64,000 nt of DNA, from positions 1 to 64,000 of the forward strand of contig CABZTD010000004.1 in the NCBI GenBank assembly GCA_902528515.1, read 5' to 3'. Numbering within the stretch: the first letter of the stretch is position 1; each line of letters begins with the position of its first letter. The DNA is from K189A clade bacterium. Its GTDB lineage: Bacteria > Pseudomonadota > Gammaproteobacteria > Pseudomonadales > Azotimanducaceae. Both the position numbers and the translations under genes were made by a program. Positions 3,119 to 5,148 of the stretch are shown piece after piece. The notes below the pieces were generated by a model. It worked only from the letters and a program-made list of their open reading frames with translations. It ran no database searches and had not been told where the DNA came from.

Positions 3119-3970
3119 CTAGGCTCCGACGATGGCAGTTTTGAGTTTGTTCATGGCATTCTTTTCAAGCTGCCGAATGCGCTCGGCGGAAACGCCGTAT
3201 TCCTCCGCCAACTCGTGCAGAGTTGATTTGTCATCACTTAACCAACGTTGCTGCAATATGTCGCGACTACGCTCATCGAGTGCTGCCAGCGCACTGGATA
3301 GGCGCATATGCATGTCTTTATCACTACTCGCATCTGCAACCAAATCCGCGGGATCCGGCGCTGAAGAAGGCAAGTAGTGCATTGGTGCAGTTGCGGTTTC
3401 GTCGTCACTGCCGTAACCATCAAAAGCCGTGTCGCTGGCACTAAGCCTACTTTCCATCCGAGTCACCTCAACGCTGGGCACGCCCAATTCATTAGCGATT
3501 GCATCGGTTTCTTCAACACTCAGCCAACTCGACGTCTTCTTGGCACCGCGCAGGTTGAAGAAGAGTTTGCGCTGGGCCTTAGTCGTCGCCACCTTCACGA
3601 TGCGCCAGTTACGCAGGATATACTCGTGCATCTCGGCCTTGATCCAATGAACAGCGAACGAAATCAAACGTACGCCGACGCTTGGATCAAAACGTTTCAC
3701 TGCCTTCATCAGACCGACATTGCCTTCTTGAATCAGGTCAGCCTGGGATAGGCCGTAGCCTTTATAGGAGCGCGCTAGGTGCACGACGAAGCGTAGGTGG
3801 CACATTACCAATTCACGTGCAGCGTTAAGATCACCATGATCTTGCAGTCTCTGAGCCAATGATTTTTCTTGTTCTGAGCTGAGAATGGGGAACCGACTGA
3901 TCGTGCGCAAGTAGGCATCCAGATCAGCTCCAGGGGCCATACTTGGCATCTTCATGACATCTGTCGTCAT
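3119..3970 (-). CDS. rpoH: RNA polymerase heat-shock sigma factor RpoH (sigma-32)
   Basis: Directs RNA polymerase to heat-shock promoters (chaperones, proteases). The 283-residue product has region 2 ([18 protein letters not shown]), the diagnostic RpoH box QRKLFFNLR at about residues 133-141, and a region 4 helix-turn-helix near the C-terminus ([19 protein letters not shown]). The ATG at 3970 gives a normal length. The leader to the upstream ftsX is about 180 bases and contains a perfect CIRCE operator, suggesting HrcA control in addition to the usual post-transcriptional regulation. Order ftsY-ftsE-ftsX-rpoH is conserved in Gammaproteobacteria. Confidence 0.97.
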
Positions 3971-4001
3971 TTTTAAAGCTCTCTTTTAGTTTATCTCAAG
4001 C

Positions 4002-4014
4002 ATCCGTAACGGAT
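4002..4014. repeat. 13-bp palindrome in the rpoH leader
   Basis: ATCCGT and ACGGAT flank a single A, 32-44 bases upstream of the rpoH start codon. As RNA it could only form a hairpin with a strained one-base loop, so a DNA-level operator or chance are both possible. No T-run follows, so it is not a terminator. Confidence 0.4.
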
Positions 4015-4059
4015 AAATTCTAACCGACGGTGCTACTTTGGGTAACATATGCCGATATA

Positions 4060-4086
4060 TTAGCACTCGTGGGGAAGGAGTGCTAA
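4060..4086. promoter_or_regulatory. Perfect CIRCE operator (HrcA binding site) upstream of rpoH
   Basis: The sequence is TTAGCACTC, nine bases, then GAGTGCTAA: an exact match to the CIRCE consensus including the 9-base spacer. It lies 90-116 bases upstream of the rpoH ATG, in the only intergenic space between ftsX and rpoH. HrcA binds CIRCE and represses groESL and dnaK operons in many bacteria, with GroEL modulating its activity. Here it would tie the sigma-32 level to chaperone availability. hrcA itself is not in this window. The match is seen directly; the regulation is inferred. Confidence 0.9.
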
Positions 4087-4149
4087 TTCAATTTTCCTCC
4101 ACGCATTCTGAGCGCGATACAAAGTGATACAGTCATTAAACCAATGGTT

Positions 4150-5148
4150 TTAGCTCGAATTCTTAACCCCAAGTCGTTGAATTAAAGCCAAGAGAGCGCC
4201 CGCAATGCCCAGCACCCAGCCCGCGGTCAGCAGCAATAGAATGATTTGCGGCGTAAAAGCTGACAGCTCGGGATCCCAACCATACGAAACCAGCAGCGAT
4301 TCCAACGGAACCTCAATTTGTTTCAAAAACACCGCAATAAGAAAAATGGCCATCATCCCGCCACCAAGGCCAAAAGCGGAGCCTAGGTAAAGAAACGGGC
4401 GACGCAGCTGGGCTCGGGTTGCGCCGATCAGTGCCAACACTCGCATTTCTGCCAGGCGCGTATCAATGGCGAGACGTATGGTGGCAAAGGAAACCAAAAC
4501 TGCGGCCGCGAGGAGCATGGTAATCAGTGCGCTTCCTCCGCGATTGCCCAACCTTGACAAATCCCGCAGCCTCTCCAGCCATAAAGACTCCACGACTACC
4601 TCTTCTACATCTGATCGACCCGAGAGCTGACGGCTAATCACCTCAAAAGCGAGATAGGACTGTTCACTATCCAGGATTACCCCAAAGGAAGCGGGCAGGG
4701 GATTGGCTTCGATCTCGGCAATAGCTTGCCGAAGAAGGTCTGACTCCGAACTTTGGGCCAACAGCTCTTCGAGCGCCTGTTGCGGTGTGGTTAGCTGAAA
4801 TCTAATCACCGCAGGCTCACGCTCCAGCACAGTAGCGATCTCCTCCAACGACTGCTCGGAAGCTCCTAGAGCCATATAAATCGTCAAGCCGGTGTTGCCT
4901 TGCCACTGTTGACTCAGACCTTGCAAATTGCTTTGCAGCATCCAAAGCAACCCTGGCATTGCCAGTGCAACACCAATCATCAGCCAAACCAGCAAACTGC
5001 CGAAAATGCGGCGGCTGATGGAAAGAGAAGTCTCTAAAGCCACGCGTCGATGGTCCGCCAACCAGGTGCGTAGCCGCCCGCCTCTTGGATGCCAAGCCTT
5101 CGATCGAGTCTTTGCGCCACGTTCGCGATTAACCTTAATTCCAGCCAC
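4150..5148 (-). CDS. ftsX: Cell-division ABC transporter permease-like protein FtsX
   Basis: Inner-membrane partner of FtsE; FtsEX is recruited to the divisome and activates peptidoglycan amidases through EnvC. The 332-residue product has a basic cytoplasmic N-terminus, a first membrane helix near residues 50-72 (SLLVWLMIGVALAMPGLLW), a large periplasmic domain, and three helices in the last 130 residues with the FtsX permease fold. The start is a GTG at 5148, two bases after the ftsE stop, so translation is coupled. rpoH follows but has its own leader with a CIRCE operator. Confidence 0.95.
   Translation of the reverse strand: MAGIKVNRERGAKTRSKAWHPRGGRLRTWLADHRRVALETSLSISRRIFGSLLVWLMIGVALAMPGLLWMLQSNLQGLSQQWQGNTGLTIYMALGASEQSLEEIATVLEREPAVIRFQLTTPQQALEELLAQSSESDLLRQAIAEIEANPLPASFGVILDSEQSYLAFEVISRQLSGRSDVEEVVVESLWLERLRDLSRLGNRGGSALITMLLAAAVLVSFATIRLAIDTRLAEMRVLALIGATRAQLRRPFLYLGSAFGLGGGMMAIFLIAVFLKQIEVPLESLLVSYGWDPELSAFTPQIILLLLTAGWVLGIAGALLALIQRLGVKNSS

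Follow-up and report, generated by a model that had tools for sequence, protein, structure and literature searches.

A predicted HrcA operator in front of rpoH in a K189A clade bacterium and across hrcA-bearing families of its class

The stretch of DNA analysed here (the window, 64,000 nucleotides) carries in front of rpoH a CIRCE element which, from the comparisons below, is very probably an HrcA operator controlling the gene for sigma-32. A pattern scan of the window recovered TTAGCACTC-N9-GAGTGCTAA, a perfect CIRCE with 0 mismatches, exactly as the first-pass annotation had claimed. No other CIRCE with up to 3 mismatches was found in the 64 kb, and a match of any kind within that limit arose in 2 of 100 dinucleotide shuffles of the window. 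The gap between ftsX and rpoH, both on the minus strand, measures 179 bases, and 89 bases (3971 to 4059) lie between the element and the rpoH start; the earlier figure of 90 was true to within one. The element had also been described as standing alone in the gap. This holds in so far as it is the single CIRCE there, but it overlaps promoter-like motifs and adjoins a conserved leader hairpin (Table 1). RpoH, FtsE, FtsY, TrmB and HrcA all score above their NCBIfam cut-offs, and the ftsX call is backed by its place after FtsE, the order ftsE-ftsX-rpoH being found also in E. coli. HrcA control of rpoH is proposed because the site is perfect, the genome has an hrcA with a full frame, the site is conserved, it co-occurs with hrcA and it is placed over promoter-like motifs. 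The coupling of HrcA to rpoH suggested by the first-pass annotation is thus well supported as an inference.

Table 1. Features in and around the ftsX-rpoH gap of the window.
Feature	Positions	Strand	Basis
CIRCE (predicted HrcA operator), perfect 9-9-9 inverted repeat before rpoH	4060..4086	-	Pattern scan; 37/37 genus genomes
rpoH, sigma-32	3119..3970	-	TIGR02392, 394.9 bits (cut-off 323.1); NF005143, 418.6 bits
ftsX, upstream same-strand neighbour of rpoH	4150..5148	-	TIGR00439, 206 bits, below cut-off of 255
TGCTAATAT, extended -10-like: rpoH-proximal CIRCE arm and next 3 bases	4057..4065	-	Sequence, class conservation
TTAGCA, weak -35-like hexamer in far CIRCE arm	4081..4086	-	Sequence only
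Conserved leader hairpin TGTTAC-CCAAA-GTAGCA, 12 bases after CIRCE	4031..4047	-	Genus comparison

The window's own genome (G000; 2.13 Mb, 89 contigs, 75% complete) was searched for the rest of the regulon. An hrcA gene, on which the original reading had been made to depend, is present as a single match on contig C9 (PF01628, E 2.5e-57; TIGR00331, 302 bits, cut-off 197). It has a full open frame, and its product is similar to 1stz, an HrcA homolog of solved structure (E 4e-19). The gene heads an hrcA-grpE-dnaK-dnaJ cluster (G000:C9; L153, 2034-7108), the last three members of which were named and ordered from their translations. Two CIRCE elements with up to 3 mismatches were found in the genome, one before rpoH and one before groES (C18:7595-7621, 1 mismatch), and none stood before hrcA-grpE-dnaK in the 75%-complete assembly. 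The first-pass annotation had proposed looking for the element before groES and dnaK; it was found before groES and not before dnaK. As far as this assembly shows, the CIRCE set here is groESL and rpoH, and further sites are possible because it may lack a quarter of the genome. Some other genomes of the class do have a CIRCE before hrcA (7 fetched and classified).

Conservation of the site was then examined in a set of 40 genomes of the genus, own included. Thirty-six have an rpoH over the cut-off, and the addition of G048, with a partial rpoH plus its upstream, gave 37 readable rpoH upstreams; left out of this count were G022, in which rpoH is truncated, and G020 and G013, in which no rpoH reached the cut-off. 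All 37 of these genomes, own included, have a CIRCE with up to 3 mismatches before rpoH, and the conservation in close relatives that the initial reading had put at stake is therefore found. Mean pairwise identity across 36 of the 37 upstreams (L098 was omitted, its flank being too short) is 0.92 and 0.96 for the two arms, against 0.32 for the spacer, 0.31 for the 40 bases upstream and 0.35 for positions +4 to +40. The second CIRCE of these genomes stands before groES in all 20 loci classified. G043 has an extra 3-mismatch match (L334), with neither rpoH nor groES downstream.

The survey was widened to one genome per family of the class (140 including own; hrcA in 105). An rpoH match was obtained in 129 of the other 139 genomes, over the cut-off in 128 and below it in G215, and one upstream was taken per genome, a second rpoH of G132 falling outside the count. 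With up to 3 mismatches allowed, CIRCE was found before rpoH in 89 of the 97 genomes with hrcA and in 5 of the 32 without it. The association persists at up to 2 mismatches (84/97 vs 4/32; p = 2e-14 by Fisher's test, which ignores shared ancestry between the families) and for perfect elements (46/97 vs 1/32). A reversed-pattern control gave no match before rpoH in the 129 genomes. Given the first of these contrasts and the empty control, the predicted HrcA site before rpoH is a feature of the class at large rather than a peculiarity of this lineage. The first-pass annotation had called it a different wiring from that of enterics, and no CIRCE with up to 3 mismatches was found in 3 kb around E. 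coli rpoH; the arrangement is nevertheless common in the class rather than rewired locally. Named relatives were also screened. Among the best 80 of 593 rpoH loci, 24 carry a CIRCE with up to 3 mismatches before rpoH, and the carriers among these 80 include Haliea, Halioglobus, Luminiphilus, Alcanivorax (L051 and L070 show the same arrangement), Ketobacter and Steroidobacteraceae. hrcA was sought in the genomes of 50 of these best 80 of 593 loci, the other 30 lying outside the count, and the site was present in 21/22 with hrcA vs 2/28 without it.

The exceptions run in both directions. Eight of the 97 hrcA-bearing class genomes have no site before rpoH, and five genomes scored as hrcA-minus have one (G183, G220, G213, G116 and G167). 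G183 does have an N-terminal piece of hrcA, at a contig end; the hrcA search gave no match in the other four. Three of these, G220, G213 and G116, have the site with at most 1 mismatch yet no detectable hrcA, as might be expected if a regulator other than HrcA, with the same specificity, used the rpoH site. However, the loss of hrcA from these genomes may be recent, or the gene may be missing from their assemblies, and the overall association with hrcA is strong, which makes a different regulator exceedingly improbable. A GAACTT box and CIRCE-like remains occur in several hrcA-minus rpoH upstreams, L067 and L226 among them, and L067 also keeps TGCTA in position; such remains are as expected following hrcA loss. 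In L235, the rpoH upstream of G110, the perfect CIRCE is joined by a second copy that has 1 mismatch and ends 5 bases before it, which suggests a tandem operator.

Remains of this kind, retained in some hrcA-minus genomes (the G169 and L067 upstreams), also raise the prospect that the window's site is itself a relic, idle in this lineage, with rpoH controlled post-transcriptionally as in E. coli. This is very unlikely: the arms are strongly conserved within the genus and the spacer is not, the site is mostly gone where hrcA was undetected (27/32), and 23 of the 26 rpoE-minus genus genomes have a perfect site. A further alternative is that the palindrome works without HrcA, as a hairpin in an RNA transcribed from an upstream start or by ftsX read-through, and there governs the stability, termination or translation of the rpoH mRNA. 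A perfect inverted repeat between two same-strand genes, with a conserved hairpin just after it, is compatible with such a role. Site presence nevertheless tracks hrcA (89/97 vs 5/32), no terminator-like site was found, and the region 3950-4200 yielded no terminator of the ftsYEX operon. Moreover, of the altered dyad positions in the 94 class sites, 58 are changed on one side only, 3 on both sides with pairing kept and 1 on both sides without. Pairing as such is therefore not conserved, and an RNA element is a very unlikely explanation.

The 94 class rpoH sites were aligned and their flanks compared with the sigma-E promoter consensus. GGAAC starts 17 to 15 bases before CIRCE in 44/94, exactly at -16 in 35; T at spacer position 1 and A at position 3 occur together in 46/94, forming TCTnA with the arm; and T is the third base past CIRCE in 83/94, giving TGCTAAnnT. 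In form and spacing GGAAC and TCTnA correspond to a sigma-E promoter, and TGCTAAnnT to an extended -10. The rpoH operator in the class thus overlaps a sigma-E-like promoter, GGAACTT-N16-TCTnA, as well as the extended -10-like TGCTAAnnT. Controls were taken from among the matches listed: the full set of 33 sites with neither rpoH nor hrcA nearby, and 7 of the 13 close to hrcA. Thirty-two of the 33 stand before groES; the other, close to a contig end, was outside the classification (L295 is outside the site classification). Against these controls among the matches listed, GAAC at -16 to -14 was found in 62/94 rpoH, 0/32 groES and 0/7 hrcA sites; the spacer T and A in 46/94, 0/32 and 1/7; and T at +3 in 83/94, 4/32 and 3/7. 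Because of these contrasts the rpoH operator is, on sequence grounds, considered to have its own geometry, unlike that of groES. The groES operators among the matches listed mostly come just after a -10-like TATTA or similar (read by eye, unscored), whereas the rpoH operator overlaps promoter-like motifs. In both cases the operator, and the repressor gene, would be those of the known HrcA/CIRCE control of groESL.

The window's own site retains part of this pattern. TGCTAATAT is kept after the operator, which spans the -35 to -10 region; GTGGAGGAAAATTGAA stands before CIRCE and the spacer starts with CTT. The window's promoter has neither GGAACTT near -16 of CIRCE nor TCTnA in the left arm and spacer. 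TTAGCA matches TTGACA at 4/6 positions, 18 bases before TAATAT, which is under the scan threshold, and a plain sigma-70 consensus scan at 9/12 found nothing at the window's rpoH operator. The case for a sigma-70 promoter here is therefore made from conservation, because the consensus scan stayed below threshold. Autoregulation by sigma-32 through TTGAA-N12-CCCCAC across CIRCE was considered and rejected because the CCCC part is missing in the close relatives G052 and G007.

The leader hairpin downstream of the operator was looked at separately. Its motif occurs in 26/32 genus loci scanned, with GTTAC 13-15 bases past CIRCE in 25 loci and 35 bases past it in one; an Rfam scan of 3900-4200 with E up to 1 gave no match to it. 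In short-leader relatives the hairpin lies directly against the start codon and contains the Shine-Dalgarno sequence (GTGTTACCGGAAGTATCAC-ATG), and in the window's subgroup about 60-190 further bases lie between hairpin and start codon. A reading of the hairpin as an RNA thermometer is not supported. In two folded short-leader loci (L118 and L099) the Shine-Dalgarno sequence, in or beside the loop, is mostly unpaired (0.6-0.8), and its pairing changes little between 20 and 45 degrees; the hairpin of the window's subgroup lies far from the start codon.

The sigma-E-like box was compared with the distribution of rpoE, called with TIGR02939 at E up to 1e-40. RpoE is found in 11 of the 40 genus genomes, and there was no rpoE match in the 75%-complete assembly of the window's genome. 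Across the 37 genus upstreams GAAC lies at -17 to -12 in 11/11 with rpoE vs 1/26 without it (p = 1.4e-8; 10/10 and 1/23 by scan, plus four rows read separately), a contrast that stands for one evolutionary event in genomes that are not independent, since the rpoE label (9 rows) changes once on the RpoH tree, on a weakly supported branch (82/64). That tree holds 34 of the 37 genus rows, three genus and three intended outgroup rows being absent. Three rpoE-minus genus genomes have GAAC further out, at -21. The operator itself differs along the same line, being perfect in 1/11 rpoE-plus vs 23/26 rpoE-minus genus genomes (p = 8e-6). In the rpoE-plus genomes TTAGCACTC is altered to forms such as TTAGCAGTC, and we read changes of this type as favouring a sigma-E -10. 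In six rpoE-minus genomes (G039, G017, G021, G005, G051 and G023) it is the non-rpoH CIRCE in which one arm reads TTAGCAGTC, with the letter change that rpoE-plus genomes show in their rpoH site; in the two that were fetched (G005 and G023) this changed CIRCE stands before groES. In the class sample, GAAC at -17 to -15 was found in 60/83 genomes with rpoE vs 0/11 without (p = 4e-6), 23 of the 83 having no GAAC box. One of the genomes without GAAC, G214, is below the curated rpoE cut-off, and moving it gives 60/82 vs 0/12. In these counts the sigma-E box goes with rpoE, and in the earlier ones the operator comes and goes with hrcA.

A comparable layout, apart from the operator, is seen upstream of rpoH in E. 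coli (L325), where GAACTT and GGTCTGA are spaced about as in the class sites and AGTGAATGATAA lies roughly where the right CIRCE arm would be. We take this to be P3, the sigma-E promoter of E. coli rpoH. No CIRCE with up to 3 mismatches was found in 3 kb around E. coli rpoH. E. coli is not among the control genomes matching PF01628 (HrcA), which fits the earlier remark that enterics are without HrcA; a loose TIGR00331 search (E 1) matched 12 controls including E. coli, with 6, unspecified, over the cut-off.

HrcA is kept active by GroEL and loses activity when GroEL is occupied. At the window's rpoH, HrcA held active by free GroEL would occupy the site and keep RNA polymerase off the promoter. 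When misfolded protein ties up GroEL, HrcA would become inactive, which would free groESL and rpoH at the same time. Heat-shock genes that have no CIRCE here would then be driven by RpoH, among them dnaK, a putative sigma-32 target. rpoH mRNA could also arise by read-through from ftsYEX. In sigma-E-bearing relatives the operator also lies over the sigma-E-like promoter, and HrcA there would therefore gate or damp the envelope-stress input too. Published expression data from Xylella fastidiosa are less simple. Under nitrogen starvation hrcA mRNA rose four-fold, groESL fell and rpoH rose two-fold (PMC3224663), and the result is repeated in a review (PMC11764788). If Xylella rpoH carries the site, these data misfit simple repression by HrcA, and another input would have to outweigh HrcA there.

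A precedent for the element comes from Geobacter sulfurreducens, for which Rodionov et al. (2004) predicted a perfect CIRCE before rpoH (Table 8 of PMC545781). As in the window, TTAGCACTC-N9-GAGTGCTAA precedes rpoH there and groESL also bears a CIRCE, but the site is placed at -51 rather than 89 bases before the start, and hrcA-grpE-dnaK-dnaJ has a CIRCE, where none was found here. The available part of PMC545781 gives the rpoH site in one studied genome, with no promoter overlap; in the present comparison the site extends across one class and overlaps a sigma-E-like promoter. The available parts of PMC3989490, PMC10490939, PMC11764788, PMC3224663, PMC1978210 and PMC3135505 do not report a CIRCE before rpoH, and, judged by titles and the openings of abstracts, the rest of the literature searched held no further report recognisable as describing HrcA control of rpoH. 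Within the searched literature, the breadth of the arrangement and an HrcA operator over a sigma-E-like promoter look new, and a first report is not claimed. A 2003 survey by Permina and Gelfand, reportedly of beta-, gamma- and epsilon-proteobacteria, may list sites at rpoH.

A broader evolutionary reading is, in our judgement, slightly favoured by these data. HrcA control of sigma-32 would be ancestral in the class (Gammaproteobacteria in the GTDB sense), with the operator laid over sigma-E and sigma-70 promoters in a three-way rpoH promoter where chaperonin shortage meets envelope stress. The E. coli state, in which sigma-32 is checked mainly after transcription, would be derived and would have arisen after hrcA was lost. 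Where rpoE was lost, as in the window's lineage, control would have fallen back to HrcA alone and the perfect operator would have been restored.

Two organisms serve as textbook models of the heat-shock response: E. coli has sigma-32 but lacks HrcA, and the reverse is true of B. subtilis. In most of the sampled hrcA-bearing families of the class the two systems appear to be coupled at the rpoH promoter, through which GroEL status could feed into sigma-32 transcription. This suggests that E. coli, without this wiring, is an exception in its class. A clear prediction follows for many bacteria that can be cultured, and the pairing of operator with hrcA and of sigma-E box with rpoE offers a natural experiment.
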